NCBI RefSeq assembly: GCF_000189635.1
Contig: NW_002476559.1
Span: 1,364,001-1,428,000, forward strand
Length of the DNA: 64,000 nt
Origin: Tetrahymena thermophila SB210
Taxonomy: Eukaryota; Ciliophora; Oligohymenophorea; Hymenostomatida; Tetrahymenidae
Direction: 5' to 3'
Shown piece after piece: positions 19,865 to 44,398 of the stretch; positions within the stretch are counted from its first letter, which is position 1, and each line of letters opens with the position of its first letter. The position numbers and the translations under genes were made by a program. A model generated the notes under the pieces. The model worked only from the letters and a program-made list of their open reading frames with translations. It searched no databases and was not told the DNA's origin.

Positions 19865-22800
19865 ATGAACAAAGAAGCAGAAAAAAATACAAGCGAAATT
19901 AATTAAGCTTATTAGGATTCAATACAATCACATAGTTTATAAGATGAGCAGATTAAAAAAAGCTCAAATGAAAAGATTTCTTAGCCATAATCTACAAGCA
20001 ATATATACCTTTAGATAATGAGCGATAAAAGACTTAATGAAAAATAATTGTAGAGAAGATCAAATAACTCAGTAAGGATGTTTAGTAATAGTCATATTCA
20101 AGATGAATAATCTGCTTAAACTAATATACAAAAATAGGAGAATTAAGGATAAACAAATGAATAAACTTAAGTTAGATAAAAGAAATAGGTTGATACATTT
20201 AATGAATTATAATAAGAAGATTCTTCATCGCAATCATCATCTTCTTCTAAGTCAAATTCTTCTTCAGATAGCGAAAGCGAAGCAGATAAAGATGAATCTC
20301 CTTCAAATGAATAGATTATAGATAATTAAAAAAATAGATCCTAAAGCAATTCAAGCTAAGATTCAAATAATAATAATATAAATTAATAAAAAAGCTGCAT
20401 GAACTAATAAAGTTTGTATTATATATAAAATACATAAACTGATTAATCTATGAGTAGCGTAAATTAAGATGAAGTTTTAGAAATGTTTAATTATTAAAGC
20501 TCTAATTACATTCCAAAATAAATAAGTTGCTAATAGTTTTATTCTTAATCGTGCAGTTAAATTCCGCTTCATTAAGCAGTCTAAGATCAAAAATACAAAG
20601 TATCAATTGAATATAAATGTGGATAAATAAATGAAGAAGGTGATAACTATGAAGAAAATGATTATCTAAAGAACAGCATGTAGATTAATAACGAAACAAA
20701 TAGCTTATTGTAATTTACTATGTTTAAATATTATTTTTTTAATTTATTTATTTTTTGATAGAATTCTTAATTGGTTAAAATTTTAAGGTATCTATAACAA
20801 TAATAATTGCTACCAATATTATTTATTCAAAGTAAATTGAGAGACAAATAGATAAATACTCTTAAAAGCAAAAAATATCTTCTAATTCAGATTTAATTCA
20901 CTCCTAAAAATTAATTAAAAAATTAATTTATTCTTCTATCTACTTTCGATTGATTTTGGTCGATAAAAAAAAACACCTCAGAACAATAAATCTAAAAAGC
21001 TTCATAATCAATTTTAACTTATTTAAATTTCTAATCATCAAATTTTATGCTTTTTTAAAGTGGATTTATGCTCAGAAAAGTCAAATCCAAAATAATTGTA
21101 ATTAACTTCTAATAAAAGCGTTCTAAAACAAGCTTTAAAATTTATTTAGTGCTTAGTTTAATTTTTAAATTAGTAATGAAATTATTTGAAATATTAAAAT
21201 TTGTTAAAATAAAAGAAGAAAAATAAGTTTTTACTCAAAAAATTTCATTAAATTGCTAGTTTTAAAAAAAAATAATAATAGAGAAGAGCATAAATTGCTT
21301 TTAAACATTAGTTTTATTGAAAAAGGGCATTTAAATTTATAGAAATTTACTTTGAAAATAGTTATTATGTTTTGAAGTAGAGTTGATTAATATATTCTTT
21401 TGAATGAAAAAAATTAGAGAGTATTTGCTTTAATTGTAAAATATAGACAAACATATTTCATTCAATAAAAACCATTTGGTTTAAACGTGAAAAAAAAATT
21501 GCTTCGAATTAAAGTTATATAATTGTATGAAATAATTCATAATATTATTATTTTTATTAAATAAGATCTTAAAATTTGAGAAATGAGAAAAAAGATAAAA
21601 ACTATTTTATGTTTTTTTTAATCAAAAAATAGAATCATTTTTTTTTATTAATTTAGGAATTCCAGGGAAATGAAAAAAAATCTCACGAAGGTTAGTGAAA
21701 TTAGTGAGAAAACTCCAAATGAAGAAGATTAGCATAGTTTCAATTAGAGTTAATATCACTAAAATTCAAAGAAACTAATGACACTTTTACCTAATATGAA
21801 TGAAGGAGACGAATTAACACTAGATATGCTCATTGGAGAAATGCAAAAATAAATTTCAATAGGTACAAATGAAAGTTCAAGAAATAATTCTTAAAGAGAA
21901 ATTCCTGCAAGCTGTGAAGAAATACACTTTCCTAACTCTCATAATAATGAAATGGGTAGAAACCCTTCTCAATAAAGGAACTCAAACAATAACATTAAAT
22001 AAATTGCTCGTAATGATAGATAAAGATAAGGTTTTAATGACATGTTTTACTTCTCTGACTAGATAAAAATATTGGAAAACATTGTCAAGCTAGAAAATCA
22101 TATTATGACTGAAGAAGTCAAATAAAAAATAAAAGCAGCTATTAGAAGACATTTTATATTTTCAAATTTAGAAGAGCAGCACATGAATCAAGTAGTTAAC
22201 AAAATGTTTGCATGCACCTGCAAATAAGGAGAATTTATATTTGAACAAAATGATGAAGCCTCACTATTTTTTTTCATTGAACAAGGAAATGTTAATATAA
22301 AAATTAACAAAGAATTCAAAAAGTGTTTAGATGAATTTACTTCCTTTGGAGAGTTAGCTTTGCTTTATAACTCCCCAAGATCAGCTTCTGCTTAGGCTGC
22401 TTAGGATGGTGTTTAATTAATTCTTTGGGCTATTGATCGTGTTACCTTTCTGTAAAATTATATTCTTATTATAATTTATGCTCATTTTATCATTAATAAT
22501 AAAATATTGCAAAAAATCAAATTATATTATGATTTATTGATTGATTGGATTGATTCATTAAAATTATTTATAAATATTTTAAAAAATAGAAATGTCATCA
22601 AACACATAAATTAGTAAGACCTAGAAGTTAATAGGAAATTTTTAGAAAATGTTTCATTTTTCTCCAACTTTACTCATGAACAAAAGGATTTGCTTGCTTC
22701 TTAATTTACCTATCAAAAATTTCATAAGGGAGAAACAATTGTCAACATAGGAGATGATGCTAACTCTTTTTATATAATTAAGTCAGGCTAAGTTAGCATT

Positions 22801-25635
22801 ATAAGCTAAAATTAGATAGAAGAAAGATAGCTTCAAGTAATTAAAAACTCTAAATTAAGTTAAATTTTAAATATTTTTTATAATTTAATTAGAGTGGTGA
22901 TTGGTTTGGTGAGAGTAGCTTATATTTAAATAAGAGTATTAGGACAAGGACTGTCTAGGCTAAGTAATTTATTAGCTTTTTTATGATATTTAGTTTATTT
23001 ATTATTGTTTAATAATTTAATATTGTTAATATTTTAAAGGAGCTTTGATGTAATTTTGCTTGCTCTATCTAGAAAAGCTACATAGGAAATATTAGGAGAT
23101 AAAATTTAATATCTAGCATTCAGAAATCTAATGAGATGGGCATTTGAGAAAGATAAAATTTTATGCAAACTCATAACTATGCAAAGAGAGAAACTTTTTA
23201 GCCATTTGAACATTAGAAAGGTGATGGATAAAGAAGAAGTCATTAATCAAGCTCGCCCAAACTAAATTTGTGTAATTTTGGAGGGAATTCTAGTATAAAA
23301 GGTAATTAATTAATTTATTTATTCAGCTTTTTTGAAATGGTGAGTGAATGATGCTATGTAAATATTTATATTTTAAAATAGTCTAACAATACTATGTACG
23401 AAAAAGCTTAAGTGGTAGGCAGTATGTGCTTGATAGCAAATTAATATACTGACAATTAATTAGTTTTCTCAGAAAAAGAGTCGCTAATAGCTGAAATTAG
23501 TAAAGAATAGATCGAAACTCTTCTTGGAGGTTCCTATGAACAGCTTGTAACTAGAAACAGAAAGAGTCATGAAAATTCTGTCTATTTCAGCAAGGGCAGT
23601 GATAAAAAACTATGTGAAGATGATGATTTACTTGGATTGAGGAACATGAAATTGATGGATTTAGTTTATATAAAAGAGCTTGGAAGAGGAAATTTTGGTT
23701 CAGTTAATTTGGTTTTTAACAACATTCAAACTCAAGATTTTACAACAAATAATAAAAGAATAAGCACACAACAAGATATAAATTAGAATTTTAATATAAG
23801 AAAGAGCAAATATTCTTAAAAAAATCCAGAAATTTAAATACAAAAGAAATCAAATAAATTTAATGAGAAATAAAAAGATAGACTATTTGCAATGAAAGTG
23901 TTCATAAGCAATTACATATTTTAAAGAGGGATCGAAAAATACATTCTTCGTGAAAAGAGTACTTTATAGAAATGTAACTTTCCTTTCATAATGAGGTATT
24001 ATCGTTCCTTTTATGATAACTACCATATCTATTTTATGAACGAATTCATTAATGGGATGGACTTTTTCACAGTCATGAGAGAAGTGGGTCTATTCAATAA
24101 ATAATAGGCATAGTTTTACACCGCATTCATTATACTCACATTGCAGTACCTAAATAATTAAGGTAAATTTAATTAATTTTTCATATTAATTATTTAATAT
24201 TAGATTTCAAAATTTAGAAAATGATAAATAATAAATAGTTAATTTATTTTAGTTACCTAATTATTAATTTATTAATTTTAGGTTTATTTATTTTTTAAGA
24301 TAACAAAAATTAAATAATTTTTTTAGTTAGATTATAAAAATTTAATTCTTAAATTGAAAATAAATGGTTTGTTGAATGTATGTTAATTAATCAACTAACT
24401 ATTTAAAAATTTTAGGAATCGTATATAGAGATTTGAAACCAGAAAATATACTAATAGATCATGAAGGATGGCCGAAATTAGTAGATATGGGTACAGCTAA
24501 GTACCTTTATGATAAAAATCAGTAATTAACCAGAACATATTCACTAGTTGGTAATAAAATTAAAATCTTTCTACTTCATTTTTAAATCAGAGTTTTTGTA
24601 AATGAAATTTTTTTAGATAACATATATATGACATGACACATGAGATGTTTATTTTCATTTATATTTTAAATTTTTAGTTTTCTTTAAATATTTTGATTTC
24701 TGTTTATTTTTATTTAAAAATAATAAATCTATAATATTAATAGTCCAAAATTTATTGTTTTTTATTAATTTTTTGCAATTTTTAGCTTTTTTATATTGAA
24801 TTCATGATAAGTGAGTATGTGAATGAGTGTGAAAGTAAATAGTAATCATAGTATTTTAATAGTTTTTATCTTATTTCAATATAAATTAAAAAAAAATCAA
24901 TTGAAAGCTTTTTAAATTTCATTTTTTTAAAGATAATAAAATTAAATCAAGTTTTACTATTGACTTACTTACTTACTTTCTTCATAAATAAATTGATATC
25001 CTGAAAAACATTTTTTGAATTATATTGATTTTTTCTCAAACAAAAAATCTAGGTACTCCTCATTACATGGCCCCTGAAGTAATTTAGTAGAAAGGTTATG
25101 GATTTGCTGTAGACATTTATTCTCTAGGTGTTATTTTATATGAATTACTAGTTGGATATTTACCATATGGAGAAGATGTAGATGATCCTATTGAAGTTTA
25201 TCAATTAATTCTTGAAGGAAGGCTAGGGTATATCAATCATATTTTATTAATAAATTGATTATTTATTTATTTAATAAATTAATTAGATTTCCAAATCACA
25301 TGAAAAATAGACTCAGCGATAAAAAATTGATTAGTTAACTAATGGCAAAATCACCAGAAGTTCGTTTAGGTGGTTCTTATGGTGCACTGAAATCTCATGA
25401 GTGGTTTGAAGATTTTGATTGGGATATATTTTTTAATAAGTAAGCAACTCCTCCATATATACCTCCAAAAAATAAATTATCTTCAGACTAATTTATTGAA
25501 GGTCAGATTCAAAATAATTCTAAAAACTCTTTCTAAACAATTATGATGATTTAAAGTGCCTAGTCAGGTAGATATGCAAAAGATTTTAAAATAACATAAA
25601 AACAAAGGGAGTTTTTAAATAACTTTAATTATTGA
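19865..25635 (+). CDS. Cyclic-nucleotide-dependent (PKG-type) Ser/Thr protein kinase, 9 exons, about 1,219 aa
   Basis: Phase-consistent exons: 19865-20709, 21657-22451, 22590-22836, 22893-22963, 23040-23301, 23382-24162, 24416-24550, 25053-25227, 25287-25635. Exon 1 encodes a Ser/Gln/Asn-rich acidic N-terminus. Then follow cNMP-binding domain A (phosphate cassette [18 protein letters not shown]), domain B ([19 protein letters not shown]) and a third, degenerate domain lacking the cassette. The AGC kinase domain shows the Gly loop LGRGNFGSV, Lys in FAMKVF, catalytic YRDLKPEN, activation end [10 protein letters not shown] and an AGC tail (RLGG...[13 protein letters not shown]). Odd points: the metal-binding DFG reads DMG, and about 60 Lys/Asn/Gln-rich residues are inserted between the Gly loop and the Lys strand. 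PKGs phosphorylate Ser/Thr when cGMP (or cAMP) relieves autoinhibition. Exon 1 could instead be a separate 297-residue gene (frame closes at 20758), since the first intron is long (947 bases). Confidence 0.92.
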
Positions 25636-34950: not shown

Positions 34951-36644
34951 TTTATTTTGATAGCACTGTCTTTCTCACTAAATAAAATATTCTAATTGCC
35001 TTTATATTTATAAATTGATTGATATTAATTTAATTTAATATTTCTATAAATGACTTAATGTATACATTCAATTATTAAATATCACATTTTAGTTCATTCA
35101 TTCATTCTTTCATTCAATTATTCGTACATTACATACATGTTTTAATCCTCACTTTGCTTTTAAGTAATGAACCATTTAAAGTCTAATTAATTAATAATTA
35201 ATATTTCACATCAGTTTTTTGATGTGATGAGCATCATATTTTTTTGAGTAGTAATTATCTGCTTTGATTTTCTATCAACAGCACTTAAATTAATAATCAA
35301 TCATATTATTTTCTTAAAACAAATCACTAATACCATAATTTAATCATTAATTTATTTTCTAAATTAAATTAAATAAACAAAGGTTTTTTTTTTAGTTACT
35401 CAATAAATTTTATAATTGTGTTGAAATATTTTACACATCTATCTTATTTAATTCTTACATTTTATGTAAGTATTTATTTTTCTATTTTAAGAGTTAAAAA
35501 AGTCTTAAATTTAAATAAAAAATAAGCATTAATTCATTATATTTAAATATTAAATAAATTAAATTATTTATGATTGAAATATCTTTTTATTTAATATCAA
35601 GCTCAAGAGTATTTTAAAATTAAGCAATATTTATTATGTATTGTTTGTTACATGAAATTATGTTTTGCAGCTAATAAACTACTAAATACAAATTTTAAAT
35701 CAAATTTAAAAAAAATATATTTTTTAAAACATAAAAAATAAATTAGTTTTAACAATAATCTATCATAAAAATATAAAATTAAGAATATATTATCGGATAT
35801 CATTTTGTTTGTTTTTAATTTTAAAATTTTAGCTAATATCTATCCTCAATAAGTAAATTATCAATAAAACTTAAATAAAAATTAAATAATTTAAAAAAAT
35901 AATTGAGCAAAAATATATATAGTGTATCCTTATTGTGGAAGAATTATTTATTATTCCTTTACTATCTATTATGTGGCTATTGTAAGAAATATAAAAAAAG
36001 AACAAAATTTCTCATTAAAATAGTTATTTTAAAAATATATCATTAAAATATGAACAAATTATTAAATATTTTTTTTAATTTTTTTAGATGGTTTTTATTT
36101 ATTTGATTTAAAATATTCTTAGAAAATTTTTAATTAAATTTGTAATTATTTTTTAATAATTATTTTATATTATATATTTAAAAAGACATTAAACTGTAAT
36201 TTGAATAGACAATAACTTATTTATAGTAATCTAAGACATTTAATAATAGGAAATTATTTAATGTTTTTGTGTAGACATTTCAAATTAAAAAATAAATTAA
36301 ATTGTATGTTTTTATTCATTTAAATCAGTAAAAAAGTATGTTTTTATTTATTACAAACTATTTCATATTATCTTTTTTTTCTAATAACTTTTTGACCTGA
36401 AAAGTAATTAATTAAAAAAGACATATTTTTATTCTTCTATAATAAAAACAATAAAAAAGTTGTTTGTTAACCTATAAAAAATTTATTAAGTTATATTTGA
36501 TTATCTGTCAAAAAACTCACTTTTTTTTCTGGATTTTTTTTTAAATAAATAAATAGCTTAATCAATAATAATATTTTGATTAAATAGAAGATTCAAAAGA
36601 TATATTTTTTGTTAGCATATCAATATTTTGCAACAAGATTATTT
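34951..36644. other. Intergenic, AT-rich, 1.7 kb
   Basis: Lies between RAD23 and the first glycine-rich gene. It holds one small perfect hairpin (35206-35227) and otherwise only A/T runs. No gene is seen. Confidence 0.6.
35206..35227. repeat. Small perfect inverted repeat (TCACATCA, 6-base loop, TGATGTGA)
   Basis: Eight-base arms with loop GTTTTT, about 255 bases after the RAD23 stop. It could be a 3'-end structure or chance. Confidence 0.5.
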
Positions 36645-39600
36645 ATGATTAATTTTAATTATGATGGAGCTAGTGGTGAAAATGGTGTAAATGGATATCA
36701 CGGGCATTCAGGATCCCATGGAGAAAATGGCAGCAGAGGTGAGAATGGAAGTTCTGGCTCAATTGGATAAAATGCTACTAAATTAAGCTTAGAAATGAAA
36801 TCAGATTCTAACAAAATAGTGATGATTGAATTAAATAAATAAAATAAAATAACACTATTAACACTTGGGGACAGTTCTAATATGGTTATGCTTTCTGCTT
36901 AAGGAGGTAAGGGTGGTGATGGAGGAGCTGGTGGTACTGGAGGTAAAGGAGGAGATGGAAGGAAAGGTAAAAATGCTACTAGATATGAAAGTGGTGAAGA
37001 TGGAGAAGATGGAGGAGATGGAGGGAGAGGTGGAGATGGAGGTGACGGAGCTGATGGAGGAGATGGAGCTGATATTTTTGTAAAATTAGAAAAATAAGAT
37101 ATGGACTTACTAATGATAATTGAAAATGTAAATCCAAATGGTGGCTAAGAAGGTAAAGGAGGAGATGGAGGAGACGGAGGACACGGAGGTTCTGGTGGCC
37201 AAGGTGGTAGTAGTCATCATTGGAATGATGGGAGAGATCGTGGTTATAATCCTGGAGGAAGTCATGGCAGAAGTGGAAGTAGAGGCTCAAATGGATATCA
37301 AGGCAAGAATGGTAACAAAGGCAGAGATGGAATATATTCAATTATGGTTGGCTCTTAAATTCACAGTAGCCGATATGAATTAAATATAAAAAATGTTTAA
37401 AAAGTTGAGTCTGATGATCTTATTATAGAACCTGGTGAAGAACTCTAAATTAAAAATATGTTATTTGTTAATGAAGGGGGTATGCCTACGCCTATTAATT
37501 AATAAATTAGATTGGAATTAATTAGTAATAAATATTTAAATTTTAAAAAAGAAGATTGTGTATATATATAAAATAGTATCGATTCTGGTTAAAATTATCA
37601 GCTTGAAAAACCTTTGAAATTTAGTGTTAATCCTTTTATTAATATTGTAAATGAAGACACAGTTTACAAAGTGTAAACTTAACTGAAATATCAGGCAACT
37701 GTAGAAAGAGTTGAGAAATCTTTTCATAAAGTTTCTAATGTAGCAACAAATTATGAAATTAGGTTTCCTGTAGAACTATCTTTAATTGAAGTACAAAAAT
37801 CTATTCAATTTAAAGAAGAATCTCCAATAGCGTTTTGCATATGGAATCGCTCCTCTAAGCCCTTAGGTATTGAAAGTTCAAATAGATTGTTAAACGTTAG
37901 AATACTCTTAAACAATAAAGAAAATGTTGTTTAGTTTCTACCAAAAAAAGTATTTGATGATGATAAATAGCATAGGAACTCAAATAAACTTGCAACTCTT
38001 GCTTATTCTTAAAAAAATTACATAAATCCATAATTTGAGGATGATAGTAAAATAATGCTAGACTAGGAATTCATCACTAATTTAATGCCAAATGAAAAGA
38101 GAATAATTAGCGGAACCTTAAAATTCAATGAGAATTTTGATACTCCTTTTAATACTAAAGTCCATTTATAGATAAAAATGGATTTAGGATATTATTTCAA
38201 TTAGAGTTAATAATACTAAAATATATAGACGAGGAATTTCTCTCTTTAGCTATCATAAGCTTACACTTATAAGCCTAATTCTGAGTTTCTAATTATAACA
38301 AATCAGCAGATAAAAAAAGAGTTAATAGATTCATTTACTTCTTTTGCATATCAATTTGGATCATCTGTTGATATTTGGAATATCAGTAATTACTAAGGTT
38401 TTGATTTCGATTATATTGGCAAAGAAGATAAAGCCTTGAAGGAGCTATATAAGGAAAAAGTAGTTGTCATTCTTTGTAACAACTATGAGTTAAATGACGG
38501 AAAATAAATTAATCCTGTGAAGTTAATTTAAGAAAAAAACATTTATAAGGCAGCTAAATTTTATGATATACGCTAGTATATTTTTGGAGATAGAAAATTA
38601 TATGATGCTACTCTTATTACTAGTTAGTGCTAAGAAGAAATCGATGCTAACTTAAAAAAAGTTGAAAATGAAACTCAACTCTTTCATAGATTCAAAAAAG
38701 GATTTTTCAAAAATATTGTAATTTAACAAAATTTAAAAGAGAAGGAATTAACTGCATTATAAATGCAGCAATAAGCATACTCAATTGATTTTATTGACAG
38801 GCTATATTGTTGTTCTACTCCTAATCATTAACGTATCTATAAAAAAAGTGATGAAATCTACAAAAAAGCAGAATTACATAATTCAAGATTTAATCATAAA
38901 GTAGTTTACACTCATGAAGTTGAGTATATAGAAAAGTCAATATTTTCTAAAGTTTGTAAATTAGGCAATATATAAGTAATAGAATAGCTAAGAAAAGACT
39001 AGTGCAGCATAATCGAACGCTAATGTATTGCAGAAGAAAAACAAAGCTTAGACGAAATTGATTACTTTTCTCTTATAAAATTGATTTCATTTGAAAAAAA
39101 ACTTTTGTTTCTATCAAGATGTTTGAATAAAGTAGAAAATTCAAAATTAGTAATAGACTGTATTCTCTCTGATTTGGCTGATGAATATATAGCATACATT
39201 CATTCAGGGATTAATAAAACAGATATTCCCTATTATATGAACAAATGGAATCAATTCATGTAGTATTCTTTCTAGGAATACTTTTTGAAAAAGAACTAGT
39301 TTCATCTCCAAATAGAATAGTAAAGTTTGAACAATGTAAGAATTTAAGATGACTTCAATGTAAAAAATAAAATCAAGGAATATTTATACACTTAAATGTA
39401 TAAGATTTGGTATGCAATTGCTTTACAAAAAAAAGGTTGTTGCTCAGCTAATGTTTCTGAAATAATTAATTATTGCAAGCATGTTCTTGAATCAGTAATT
39501 GGCAAGATATTCACAGATAAAAATGAATATTTGTAATATTAATAAATATCACAATAACAAATAAAGCAGGCTTTACCAAATTTATATGAAATTTAAAAGT

Positions 39601-39842
39601 GCTATTAAAAAGATGTATTTGTGGAAAGGTAAACAAAAAATGCTAAATTCTATGAAAGTTTTATACAATTTAACGAACAGAGACTAATCAAATAAGTAAA
39701 TTAAAATTAAGATTAAAATACAATTCCAAATAGAATCTAAGAGGGATCTTTTTATTTTATTGATGATACCACACAAACAACAGATTAGTTTAAAAGGTAA
39801 TAAAAAATAGAACAACTTGAAAAACAGATTTAATTTCAATGA
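36645..39842 (+). CDS. Large glycine-rich, collagen-like N-terminus protein, 1,065 aa, intronless (copy 1)
   Basis: One open frame of 1,066 codons from ATG 36645 to TGA 39840-39842. Residues about 5-45 and 85-225 are Gly-X-X/GGDGG-type repeats ([19 protein letters not shown]), interrupted by short beta segments: [16 protein letters not shown], and an [10 protein letters not shown] box. The pattern ends in SSHHWNDG...NPGGSHG and GRDGIYSIM. The following 840 residues are not repetitive and share blocks with the downstream gene: a DxxIIEPGE box, FKEESPIAF and [10 protein letters not shown] (about 380-410), [13 protein letters not shown] (about 570) and a Cys-containing C-terminal region. No signal peptide or membrane span is evident. 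From memory, a similar Gly-rich architecture with ATRYSSG, SSYSW and NPGG boxes occurs in bacterial and amoebal proteins of unknown function; I cannot verify this here. Function unknown. Confidence 0.9.
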
Positions 39843-40551
39843 GTCAGAGAGTGATTGATTAAAATATAAATATTTACTTAGCAAAGTTAAAAATTAAAAA
39901 TCTTTACCAAATAAATAGAATCCAAAAGAAACTCTTTGATCTATACAGCCGATATTTATGCAAAAATAAATAAATAAATAAAAATATTTTGTTTTTATTT
40001 TAAAAATAACAATTAGAGTTGTTTAAACTTATTAAATTATAAAAGCATATTGTTTAATCTAAATATAAATGTAAATGTATTATATTTGTTTTCATTTTAC
40101 CTTAATAAACAAAAAAGAAAATGTAAATAAATAAACTATTTTGAATAGTAATTCATCCTAATAAAATCTAATTAAAATTATATATTGATATTATCAAATA
40201 TCTTTTCTATCTTAGATTCTAAAATTACCTTATTAGAAAAATCATAATAGACAGATATCAACATTTATTAGTTGATATGATCAGGTGTTTAATTCACATC
40301 AGGCTTTTATTAATTTAAGTAAACCCTAAAAAGGATACCAAACTATTTTGCTCAGAATTAATTAATATTTTGTATTTTGATAATTTTACAGTCTAAGGAT
40401 ATTATTAAATTATTATTATTACACTTTATCATATTTATATTACATTTTTTATGAAGATTAAGTTGTGTGGATATATGATTGATTATTATTATAATAATTA
40501 TAAATATATAAAAATTGTAGCTATTTTAATTAAAATAATCAATTAATAGTA
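39843..40551. other. Intergenic between the glycine-rich paralogues
   Basis: About 700 AT-rich bases after the TGA of copy 1. It should hold the 3' end of copy 1 and the promoter of copy 2. No gene is seen. Confidence 0.6.
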
Positions 40552-43500
40552 ATGCTTTCCTTTGATTATAGTGGAACAAACGGTTCAACAGGTATTAATG
40601 GCAGAAGCGGATCTTGTGGTATCATGGGCATGCGTGGGCAAGATGGCTCTGATGGTGGATTTGGAACTGATGCTACAAACGCTAGAAATATTAACTTAGT
40701 TCTAAGAACTGATGGATCAGCAAAGATCATTATAGATGAATTAAATTAGAGATCTCTTTTTGATAATTTGATTTTAGGTGATTCAAATAATAAAGTAAAT
40801 CTCATTTCCAACGGTGGCCATGGAGGACATGGAGGTGCTGGTGGAGATGGAGGTAGAGGAGGTGATGGTATGAGTGGACATAGTGCAACTAGATATTCTT
40901 GCGGTACTAATGGATAGAATGGAGGTAATGGTGGTGATGGAGGCAATGGTGGCGATGGAGGTAATGGAGGTGATGGTGGAGCTATTACTGTAACCGCTAA
41001 TAATTAAGATATGGATTTGTTTATGCTTATTGATTAAGTTTTCTATAAAGGTGGCAACGCAGGATTAGGAGGTCCAGGAGGTAGTGGAGGTTCTGGAGGA
41101 TTTGGAGGTAGAGGAGGTAGTAGCTACTCATGGTCAGAAACCTAAAATGGAGTTACAAGACACTACAGCAATCCTGGTGGTCATAGCGGTATGCCAGGTT
41201 TTAGAGGTAAAAAATTAAAATGGCTTATTTAAATTTTAATAAACATAAAACAATTTATTTTAAAATATCATTTCTTAGCTAACTTTTACCATGATATTTT
41301 GTTTAAATGATAGATTCATTCGATTTTTGTGATTATTTTGATATTTGTTTATAGAAAGATTTGTATGGATAAATTAATGCTTTTAAAATTGTATTTTCAT
41401 AATAAATATAGGTAGAGATGGTGTTAGTGGTCGAAATGGAAGACCAGGAAGAGATGGTACTTTTGCTTACATACTTGATGGGAAATAGTACTCATATCGT
41501 TATAATCTCAAAATAGACAGAGTTTGTGCTATTTAGTCTGACGATGGAATTATAGAACCTGGTGAATCGTTAATGATAAATGCAATGGAGGTTTTAAATA
41601 TTGGAGGTATGCATACTCCTATTGCTTAATAGATTGCATTATATTTGCAGGATAATTAATGGATTTACTTCAATCCGATTGATACTGTGTTTATTCCTCA
41701 TAGTATACCTATAGGACAAGTATTTAATATTACAGATGCAAATCCAATTTAATTTAAAATAAAAGATTACACTAAAGCTGCTATTGACTCTGTTTTTAAG
41801 TAAACTGCTGTAGTCGATTACAGGGCTAAGGTCGAAAGAATTAACAAAGAATTTTAGACTGTTACAGATTAAACTAATAAATACACTGTTAGATTTCCTG
41901 TTGAAATTTCCCCTGTTCAACTTTTAAGATCTGTCACATTTAGAGAAGAATCCCCTTTTGCGATAAGCATTTGGAACCGCTCTACTAAGCCTATTGGTAT
42001 TAATCACAATAGATTGCTTAACTTTAGATTAATTTTATGTGATACAAGACAAACAGTTGATTTTATCCCAAAAATGTTTGAAGACTAAGATAAAGATTAT
42101 CGCAATTCTAGCATTTGGGGGTAGAATGCAAGAAATCAAAAAAATTTTGTTAATCCTAGCATGAATGAAAATTTTAATTACATAATTGAGCAAGAGTTTA
42201 TTACTTCAATAGGCCCAAATGAAAAAAAAATTATCAGTGGAACAATTAAACTTAAAGATTAAAATTTGCCTTTGTACACAAATATAAGAATGCAAGCTAA
42301 GTTGGATTTAGGATATTACCACAATCAAGCAGAGGTGTTTTAAAACATTTAAACACGTAATTTCCATATTTAATTGACAGAAGGACATAACTTTGATCCA
42401 AATTCTGATTTTTTGCTTGTGTTTAACTGTGAAACATCTAGTATTTTTATAGATTCTGTAAAATAGTTTGCTGAATCCTTTGGTGGTAATGTTGATTTAT
42501 GGAATATATCAAATTATCAAGGATTTAATTATGATTATATTGGTCCAATTGATAAACCTTTGTCAACTCTATATAAAAATAAAGTAGTTATCATTTTGAC
42601 TAATGAATACTCACTTATCAATAGCGAAAAAACAAATGCTATGAAGTAAATTAGAGAACCTCATATCTACAAAGGAATTAAAGACTACAAAATAAATGCT
42701 TACATTTTGGGTCCTTGGTCAAATTATAATGAATTTTGGTTAATTCACCCTAATTGTGATAGCGATTCTAGTGTTACTATAGGAAATTAAGAGAATGAAC
42801 TATACAGGTAATTTGCCTCAGATTAAAAAGATAAAGAGGATTTAAATAAGGTAGATCCTGATGAAGAAACTAAAAAGGCATTAATAGGAAATTATCTCAT
42901 GGATTGTTCTTATACTTATGATTTTCACACTAGCATCTCTTGCTGCTCAAATCCATCTAGTGATAAAATATACACAAAAGCGAAAAGTGTCCTGAAAAAG
43001 ATTGATTAATTGAATCCCTCTTATAACCATATTCTTACCTATGCTTACAAGCCAGAATTAGTGAAAAAAGGTACCTTCTCATCAGAATATAATTTAGGTA
43101 AAATAACTGTTATTGAATCTATGAGAAAAGATGCAGCTACTCTAATTACTCGTAACAGAGCATAGCTAAATGAAACTATGTTAGATATTGTTGATAGATT
43201 TTGTTTAATTAAATTACTTTCTTTTGAGAAAAAGCTAAATTATCTTCAAAGAGCCATGGGAAACTTCGATAATGCTAAAATGGTAATTCAAGCTATAGTT
43301 TCAGATCTCTGCGATGAATATGTCACATTCCAAAAGTTACCTTAAAATAACAAGGAACTATAAGCCAATCTAAAGAATTGGACATAATTTATGAAATTTA
43401 ACTTTGATGAAGCCTTGAAGCCATTTAAGCCAAAATAAAAAAAGACATAAATTCATGGAGGTTTTAGATCAGAACCTGGATATAATAACCCAACTTATTA

Positions 43501-44398
43501 GGATCCTGCAATGCCTCCTTAAATGCAATTTTCTTCTGAACCTCCCCTCCCTCCTGCTCCTGCAAATTGTGAATTTGATGGATAATAACCCCCAATGTTC
43601 AACGCATAATAGGATATTAACATGTAACAAGGTAATTATGATTATCCTCCTTAAATGAATGAAATGGATAATAACTAATAATAAAACTAGCTCTTAGAAA
43701 ACGTTAAAGAAATAAATATTGTTGAAAAATAAGATAAATTCGAAATAAATATAAATGTTTAATAAGACTAAAACTAAAATATGTAAAATATGAATATGCC
43801 ACCACCAGTAATAGGTATTTCTTTAGATCAAGCCGCAGCAGCAACTCTATAACCAGAAATGCAATAGTAAGTTGATGGTGAGTAAGAAATTTTAATTTCT
43901 AATTAAGTAAGAAACTATTTAATTGAATATTTAATCCACTTTGAGGCTGCTTTAAAAAAACAAATATCCTTTGGATAAAAATGTTGCTGCTCTATTACAG
44001 CTAAAGTTAACTCCCATTGTCGTACAATTATTGGGTCAATTTTAATAAAAAAATTGTAAGTTGGCTCTGAATTAATTAATCAATAAGGTTAGGCATTTTA
44101 TAAAGAATTAGAGTAAAAAGATAAAAATGATGTATTTGAATTGTATTAAGCTCCTCATAAAGCTATGAATAGGGCAATTAAAAATTCTGATTTTGTCAGA
44201 CAAAACAATCTTAATTTGCAATCAACTGCATACAGCATAAGAGATTTTCCTCATTTTAATTTCAACAAAGATGAAAATGTCTATATTCAAGATGGATCAT
44301 TTATCTTTACTAACGAAATAACACAAGAAATCAATTACCAAAAAAGATAGAATAAAATAGAAAGATTCGAAAATTAAATATAATTTGACAAAGACTGA
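40552..44398 (+). CDS. Large glycine-rich, collagen-like N-terminus protein, 1,213 aa, 2 exons (copy 2)
   Basis: Exon 1 is 40552-41206 and exon 2 is 41412-44398. The 205-base intron splits a Gly codon (FRG|RDG). The spliced frame is 1,214 codons ending in TGA. The layout matches copy 1: FDYSGTNGSTG start, Gly-rich runs with NGGDGGNGGDGGNGG, an ATRYSCGTNG box, MDLFMLID, GGSSYSWSE, NPGGHSG and GRDGTFAY, then the conserved body with IIEPGE, FREESPFAI, IWNRSTKPIG and NVDLWNISNYQG (same order and spacing). It differs in having the intron and a longer C-terminal third with a Pro/Gln/Asn/Met-rich linker (about residues 890-1025) before a final conserved block ending in QDGSF. No signal peptide is seen. 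The two genes clearly arose by tandem duplication and have diverged strongly outside key boxes. Function unknown. Confidence 0.9.
41207..41411 (+). other. Intron inside the glycine-rich region of copy 2
   Basis: GTAAAA donor and ATATAG acceptor, with AT-rich content unlike the flanking GC-rich glycine codons. The splice is phase 1 and restores the Gly-x-x pattern. Copy 1 has no intron at the equivalent place. Confidence 0.85.

Follow-up and report, generated by a model that had tools for sequence, protein, structure and literature searches.

The stretch of DNA analysed here, referred to as the window, comprises 64,000 nucleotides of Tetrahymena thermophila SB210 (contig NW_002476559.1, positions 1,364,001 to 1,428,000), presumably macronuclear, and the elements under study are two adjacent genes, gene 1 and gene 2, which lie in tandem on its forward strand and encode large proteins with glycine-rich heads (Table 1). 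Calling open reading frames (ORFs) over the window with the standard code gave none of 250 amino acids or more, and for that reason this code was rejected in favour of translation table 6, in which TAA and TAG encode glutamine; both genes are then open at the coordinates given in a preliminary description of this DNA. Gene 1 occupies a single ORF (36501-39842), in which the first in-frame ATG is at 36645, and gene 2 occupies two (40483-41310 and 41342-44398). Because the exon 1 frame of gene 2 closes at a TGA (41308-41310), an intron is needed, and joining the GT at 41207 to the AG at 41411, a putative splice site placed from the sequence, restores the reading PGFRG/RDGVSG. Both genes carry the Pfam domain DUF7932 (PF25560) above its gathering cut-off of 27 bits, so that the body of the proteins, described earlier as of unknown function, contains a catalogued family. 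DUF7932 is itself listed in Pfam as a domain of unknown function, and no strong match to a characterised family was found.

Table 1. Features of the tandem gene pair in the window; residue numbers are those of the encoded proteins.
Feature	Coordinates	Strand	Description
Gene 1	36645..39842	+	1065 amino acids, single exon, ciliate code, TGA stop
Gene 1 glycine-rich head	36645..37349	+	Residues 1-235; Gly runs 8-43, 87-110, 117-143, 167-190 and 205-231 with short strands between; predicted polyglycine-II bundle
Gene 1 first Ig-like beta-sandwich	37368..37664	+	About residues 242-340; AlphaFold and fold matches
Gene 1 DUF7932 match	37407..37763	+	Residues 255-373; E 1.2e-16, 61.7 bits
Gene 1 second beta-sandwich	37665..38264	+	About residues 341-540, contains EESP and IWNRS; AlphaFold and fold match
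Gene 1 C-terminal module	38265..39599	+	Residues 541-985; helical domain preceded by an alpha/beta core into which a strand-helix-hairpin unit is inserted
Gene 1 receiver/flavodoxin-like alpha/beta core, first four strands	38265..38624	+	About residues 541-660
Gene 1 box DxWNISNYQG	38370..38399	+	Residues 576-585; second strand and start of next helix
Gene 1 C-terminal helix	39765..39836	+	Residues 1041-1064, after a low-confidence linker; kept in five aligned ciliate sequences
Gene 2	40552..44398	+	1213 amino acids after the proposed splicing
Gene 2 exon 1	40552..41206	+	Bulk of glycine-rich head
Gene 2 intron (putative)	41207..41411	+	205 bases, GT...AG, in-frame TGA inside
Gene 2 exon 2	41412..44398	+	Head end, DUF7932, second sandwich, alpha/beta and helical module, Q/P-rich insert near C-terminus
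Gene 2 DUF7932 match	41537..41866	+	E 9.7e-17, 62 bits
Gene 2 box DLWNISNYQG	42494..42523	+	
Residue positions of boxes, gene 1/gene 2			ATRY 111/112, SSxxW 189/190, NPGG 202/207, IIEPGE 260/265, EESP 391/397, IWNRS 399/405, DxWNISNYQG 576/580

The two proteins are identical at 375 of 912 aligned columns (41%, BLASTP), and the seven short sequence boxes by which the preliminary description had recognised a tandem pair occur in the same order in both. Outside the pair, the T. thermophila protein P0005 retains the strict words SSxxW, IIEPGE and DxWNISNYQG and has the other four boxes altered, and in bacterial relatives the positions ATR, SSxxW, GG(S), EP(G/D) and W(D/N)xS mostly recur, together with the neighbouring words GGMPTP and FPVE. 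The boxes are thus conserved beyond this pair, though the bacteria lack two of the seven, EESP and IWNRS, as words, and judged from the sequences the homology of the family members outside the pair is far beyond chance.

The heads of both proteins have glycine at every third position in five blocks, the pattern of polyglycine-II runs, and the longest such run (36 residues in gene 1, 33 in gene 2) exceeds the maximum of 24 seen in 1000 shuffles of each. In all, the longest run exceeded the shuffled maximum in six of the nine heads tested, those of P0008, P0076 and L041 being the three in which it did not. Proline accounts for only 2 of 240 residues in the gene 1 head and 4 of 245 in that of gene 2, with no GPx triplet in the former and one in the latter, so that the earlier distinction between GGX-type and Gly-Pro-X repeats was well drawn; the absence of a visible signal peptide was likewise confirmed, as the sole in-frame start lies seven residues before the glycine run, and only seven residues precede it in all three ciliate N-termini compared. 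In the AlphaFold model of gene 1 residues 1-240, 21 of the 24 ten-residue blocks have a predicted local distance difference test (pLDDT) score of 84-97 and the other three score 73, 51 and 76; the structure predictions were made for monomers and their output consists of helix, strand and other classes. As had been proposed, the glycine repeats alternate with conserved non-repeat beta segments, whose spacing is nearly fixed. Among the alignment rows having both ends, block T112-M157 has 46 residues in 66/66, G167-W193 has 27 in 67/67 and G87-T112 has 26 in 65/66, and in a diverse set the same three lengths were kept in 31/32, 32/32 and 30/31 rows (20/21, 22/22 and 19/20 for rows that are neither ciliate nor planctomycete). 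The fifth block has 31 or 32 residues, and the variable parts are the N-terminal block (42 residues in 49/60), the strand region after it (34 in 44/63) and the loop after W193 (25 in 55/67).

Its scarce prolines, central runs whose length hardly varies between bacteria and ciliates, and the high confidence of the monomer model set the head apart, by sequence and prediction, from ordinary collagen; the model points instead to a compact folded monomer, probably rigid. Its fold is likely to be a packed bundle of polyglycine-II helices, which would explain the near-fixed lengths, the GGX pattern and the confident monomer model together. A four-row head profile run against the sequences of the PDB found 11 chains with an expectation value (E) of 1 or less (best E 0.0028), resembling glycine linkers or short glycine stretches. 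The head may resemble the N-domain of Obg; neither gene 1 nor either exon of gene 2 gave a GTP1/OBG Pfam match at E<=1. Two PHROGs matches of gene 1, to the 'tail fiber protein' phrog_5073 (E 6.6e-8, residues 8-367) and to phrog_366 (E 0.0033), were taken to reflect glycine composition and left unused, and gene 2, queried without its exon 1 head, gave no PHROGs match; an NCBIfam SclA match (15.5 bits against a cut-off of 400) was rejected.

Behind the head, two Ig-like beta-sandwiches are predicted, the assignments in gene 2 being made by alignment to gene 1, on which the structure prediction was carried out. A PDB fold search with the whole gene 1 model returned a list filled by immunoglobulin-like (Ig-like) sandwiches, and these matches are generic, complement, deiminases and transglutaminases also being listed. 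By sequence, gene 1 found seven PDB chains at E<=1, mostly glycine-linker-like stretches, and the profile A6 found no PDB chain at E<=0.1; a Pfam KCTD1-15_CTD match (14.7 bits, below its cut-off) was disregarded.

The preliminary description had suspected a Rossmann-like fold around the DxWNISNYQG box and the KVVVIL strand that follows it, and this is supported by the AlphaFold model of gene 1 residues 538-985 (pLDDT 87.2, predicted template-modelling score 0.87) and by structure matches to the module, which include flavodoxin, DJ-1 and the MilB nucleotide glycosidase. A Foldseek search with residues 538-985 gave no match under E 0.1, and no Pfam receiver or flavodoxin match was found at E<=1 for either protein. 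On the model, the alpha/beta domain appears to be a divergent receiver/flavodoxin-like one, differing from those folds in a large insertion before the fifth strand; it is the best conserved part of the protein. Its strands carry, close to their C-terminal ends, the conserved residues N553, W578, S581, N612 and G648. The aspartate that accepts the phosphate in receivers, at the end of the third strand, is absent by eye, its place being taken by N612 (N in 25 and D in 3 of 37 rows). Judged by eye, the phosphate loop for flavin mononucleotide (FMN) that follows the first strand in flavodoxins is absent too, the loop here reading TNQQIKKEL, with the family pattern N..T. Two Cys-Cys pairs are invariant in five aligned ciliate proteins (at residues 722-723 and 932-933 in gene 1, starting at 729 and 1076 in gene 2), and the bacterial protein P0008 has other residues or a gap at these places; the pairs might be lipidation sites that tether the protein to a membrane.

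The genome of T. thermophila, 101,022,631 bases in 445 contigs, was scanned with the PF25560 profile at E<=0.001. Six places were found, all above the cut-off, two each on C94, C17 (the window pair) and C324. Over 877 codons the two C94 copies share 94% identity. The 9.7 kb separating them is over double the distance within either of the other pairs, and the stretch between them (C94:179680-185000) could hold another gene or copy. One C94 gene (878 residues read in L001) is identical to the start of P0005, which is the hypothetical protein TTHERM_00320360 of T. thermophila SB210, and the proteins P0004 of T. malaccensis and P0007 of T. utriculariae are close to the C94 copies. The copies on C324 are more divergent, with a head spread over several frames, presumably split by introns. 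T. utriculariae also has an orthologue of gene 2 (P0006), annotated without the head.

The C94 pair shows that the parts of the protein have changed at uneven rates, amino acid changes in the head roughly keeping pace with synonymous ones and the remainder being constrained. In head codons 1-245 there are 35 nonsynonymous and 11 synonymous differences (pN/pS, the nonsynonymous to synonymous ratio, 0.96), against 29 and 28 in codons 246-877 (pN/pS 0.26; 0.20 for the sandwiches and 0.42 for the part behind them); the density of nonsynonymous differences differs between head and rest (Fisher p 2.4e-6), whereas that of synonymous differences does not (p 0.86). Within the head, 4 of 76 glycines were changed, compared with 24 of 169 other residues. 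Identities among P0004, P0005 and P0007 were 70-79% in the GGX part, 88-89% in the sandwiches, 93-96% in residues 541-660 and only 76-82% in residues 711-960, and residues 541-660 were again the best conserved in 56 non-ciliate, mainly planctomycete-type rows. For 332 pairs with a sandwich identity of 0.6-0.7, mean identities were 0.78 for residues 541-660, 0.73 for 711-960, 0.63 for the sandwiches and 0.39 for the first head segment; the GGX part averaged 0.68, or 0.56 when glycines in common were left out.

Both searches with ciliate queries, which covered relatives sharing short exact words and about 8000 scored candidates, returned only Tetrahymena proteins plus one bacterial protein; the bacterial P0008 was reached by the ciliate alignment (E 3e-33). 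With P0008 residues 285-780 as the query, 76 proteins were found at E<=0.01, the named ones coming from Pirellulaceae or other planctomycetes and two from Polyangiaceae, and scanning species genomes yielded 10 loci, two in a single Chlamydiae assembly, one in Bdellovibrionales and the others in planctomycetes. PF25560 was above its cut-off in 3 of 232 Chlamydiota genomes, a fourth match (G061, E 3.7e-4, below the cut-off) being rejected because it sits within a valyl-tRNA synthetase. It was found in 5 of 392 sampled Planctomycetota genomes, in 17 of 199 sampled genomes from the family of planctomycete G004 (one copy each) and, at E<=0.001, in 28 of 240 sampled Bdellovibrionota genomes, 20 of them above the cut-off; the other eight matches may be false. 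None of the 14 control genomes had a match. On sequence evidence, relatives are thus present in four bacterial phyla, Bdellovibrionota, Planctomycetota, Myxococcota and Chlamydiota, and of the bacterial and amoebal relatives suggested earlier the bacterial ones were recovered by both profile and sequence searches, while none was seen from amoebae, whose genomes were not searched directly. By simple hydropathy (best 12-residue mean >1.8, on scripted ORFs with uncurated start codons), signal-peptide-like N-termini were seen in 9 of 10 Bdellovibrionota proteins and in all three of P0076-P0078, but in none of 13 planctomycete, chlamydial and myxobacterial ones (highest 1.7, P0017).

The family is apparently present in a giant virus as well: the top viral match in BFVD was a predicted structure from Terrestrivirus (Klosneuvirinae) annotated as DUF7932 (E 5e-39, 1242 alignment columns, template-modelling score 0.37), the next-best viral structure having E 1.1e-5. 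IMG/VR scans with P0081, A4 and A7 found no relative, which is not evidence of absence, since BFVD holds the Terrestrivirus member, and gene 2 exon 2 gave no tblastn match in phages. A tree of 37 rows and 395 columns from the sandwich and alpha/beta region, rooted at its midpoint, places the nine ciliate rows in one group (support 98/95) and sets these with all four chlamydial rows opposite Planctomycetota, Bdellovibrionota, Myxococcota and unnamed rows (94/99, just below the starred level of the tool). The tree suggests gene transfer, in one direction or the other; we put it no more strongly because of the long branches, odd composition and midpoint rooting.

Gene neighbours were surveyed at 25 loci, 24 of them with a recognised family gene and two (L010 and L043) being the same place, and no neighbour recurring across phyla was found among them. 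Three of 12 Bdellovibrionota loci have, downstream of the family gene, a CxxC protein with no Pfam family above cut-off, directly after the DUF7932 gene in L042 and L050 (L042:11703-12584, L050:7248-8207) and one gene farther in L051 (L051:6929-7990); the three proteins are mutually related and have a hydrophobic N-terminus. In the seven planctomycete loci, the next frame to the right is a sulfatase in four (L007, L009, L011, L013; Pfam checked in three) and the next to the left a 4HBT thioesterase in three (L011, L013, L016; Pfam checked in two). These adjacencies are possibly due to chance, and since sulfatases are abundant in planctomycete-type genomes and L007 and L009 are close relatives, we draw no pathway from them. 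The proposal that the pair belongs to an undescribed system was therefore not upheld, neighbours recurring within single phyla only, and with no partner common to all loci the family protein probably does without a fixed operon. At L015:4310-11161 the chlamydial gene is flanked by a frame that looks by eye like an M48 peptidase and by a gene of the TLC ATP/ADP-transporter type (31.8 bits against a cut-off of 21), and no mobile element was seen near it by eye. Elsewhere in the window, two adjacent frames on the + strand (21580-22983 and 23352-24221) match a cyclic-nucleotide-binding domain in two stretches (E 1.5e-19) and a protein-kinase domain (E 4.6e-15); they may belong to a single intron-interrupted gene for a cyclic-nucleotide-dependent kinase.

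Our preferred reading, to which we would give somewhat less than an even chance, takes the pair as tandem paralogues encoding a DUF7932 protein that would work within the ciliate cell as a recognition scaffold of several domains. The polyglycine-II helices of the head would be bundled with their glycines inside, leaving the X residues and the loops as an exposed, fast-changing binding surface; most likely the head would bind something through these exposed residues, a step proposed by analogy with the phage adhesin gp38, and candidate targets are microbial or endosomal surfaces, structures of the cortex and other proteins. The Ig-like sandwiches would act as a spacer keeping the head apart from the core, in which N553, W578, S581, N612 and G648 would form a putative ligand or partner site, and the alpha/beta core would relay or execute the response. 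The rate data fit a conserved core that carries a variable surface on a fixed frame, but they also fit relaxed constraint on the head, as would be expected if the protein were a cytoskeletal or cortical building block with an architectural head and sandwiches. We regard such a structural role as unlikely, because the Ig-like matches are generic, the best conserved part is an alpha/beta domain with polar residues at its strand ends, and the patchy presence in Chlamydiota and Planctomycetota is ill-suited to a core structural part in bacteria. The same conserved domain would suit an enzyme belonging to a new family of hydrolases or transferases and brought to its substrate by the head, as the conserved N, W, S and N lie at the usual active-site edge of such folds and flavodoxin, DJ-1 and the MilB glycosidase are among the structure matches; the missing FMN loop and receiver phospho-site, the lack of any Pfam match over cut-off in the C-terminal region and the retention of N612 in only 25 of 37 rows make this explanation rather improbable.

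That the gene passed among Chlamydiota, giant viruses and protists, and that ciliates retained it for defence or for interaction with symbionts, is possible, if on balance doubtful. The grouping of the nine ciliate rows, their place with the chlamydial rows and the gap between the Klosneuvirinae structure and the next viral match all speak for it, whereas the 94/99 branch falls below the starred level of a midpoint-rooted tree with several long branches and no viral member, the viral sequence was not found in IMG/VR, and the PADLOC library of defence systems gave no match for P0001, gene 2 exon 2, P0008 or P0076. A bolder combination, which we consider a long shot, would make DUF7932 proteins a recognition-effector family common to residents in and around protist cells (Chlamydiota, Klosneuvirus, ciliates and, in secreted form, Bdellovibrionota), with a fixed-glycine polyglycine-II head whose side chains diversify, a divergent receiver-like switch and a helical output; ciliates would have gained it by transfer, duplicated it in pairs, and would now use it in sensing or disarming intracellular microbes or viruses. 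By far the least credible explanation is an ordinary extracellular collagen-like protein or a low-complexity artefact: the Pfam Collagen (PF01391) matches of 22.6 bits in gene 1 and 18.7 bits in gene 2 exon 1 hint at it, but both are under the cut-off of 27.2, and the scarcity of proline, the lack of a signal peptide, the near-fixed central blocks across phyla and the confident monomer fold go against it.

Among known proteins, the closest are the other DUF7932 proteins, whose bacterial members also have the head, several boxes and the C-terminal module; the Pfam model spans only a 130-position segment, and the remainder of the gene 1 and gene 2 proteins has no Pfam match over cut-off. As the family is already catalogued under this name, we propose no new one. 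We found no literature naming DUF7932, PF25560 or TTHERM_00320360, and no titles on Tetrahymena collagen-like proteins that concern gene 1 or gene 2; nor did we find in print the domain architecture as a whole, the head of near-fixed length, the occurrence in ciliates, a giant virus and four bacterial phyla, or the uneven rates, most subscription papers lying outside the search. The genetic tractability of T. thermophila makes a family known only as a DUF open to experimental test. With collagen-like proteins the pair shares a Gly-X-Y run, here at the extreme N-terminus, but its heads are nearly without Gly-Pro-X, have no signal peptide, consist of near-fixed blocks and fall below the Pfam cut-off. 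The gp38 tail-fibre adhesins of phages S16 and PP01 likewise have several glycine-rich motifs with other segments between them, folded and not triple-helical, but they have ten short motifs supported by a beta-helix, in contrast to the runs of 24-36 residues joined to Ig-like domains in the present proteins (PMC6851490, PMC12892980). No sequence relation between gp38 and the two heads was found, and the polyglycine-II geometry of the latter is deduced. Few solved proteins show polyglycine-II packing; besides gp38, a paper of 2019 counted four structures with similar motifs in the PDB (PMC6851490). In mycobacterial PE_PGRS domains, predicted to be polyglycine-II sandwiches, GGX triplets are likewise read as packed helices, but the domains vary between 7 and 54 helices, compared with the near-fixed central blocks retained across phyla here (PMC10216338). 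A polyglycine-II head of near-fixed length that is apparently cytosolic in a eukaryote, and that keeps one and the same body across Bdellovibrionota, Chlamydiota and ciliates, would put this fold to a new use.

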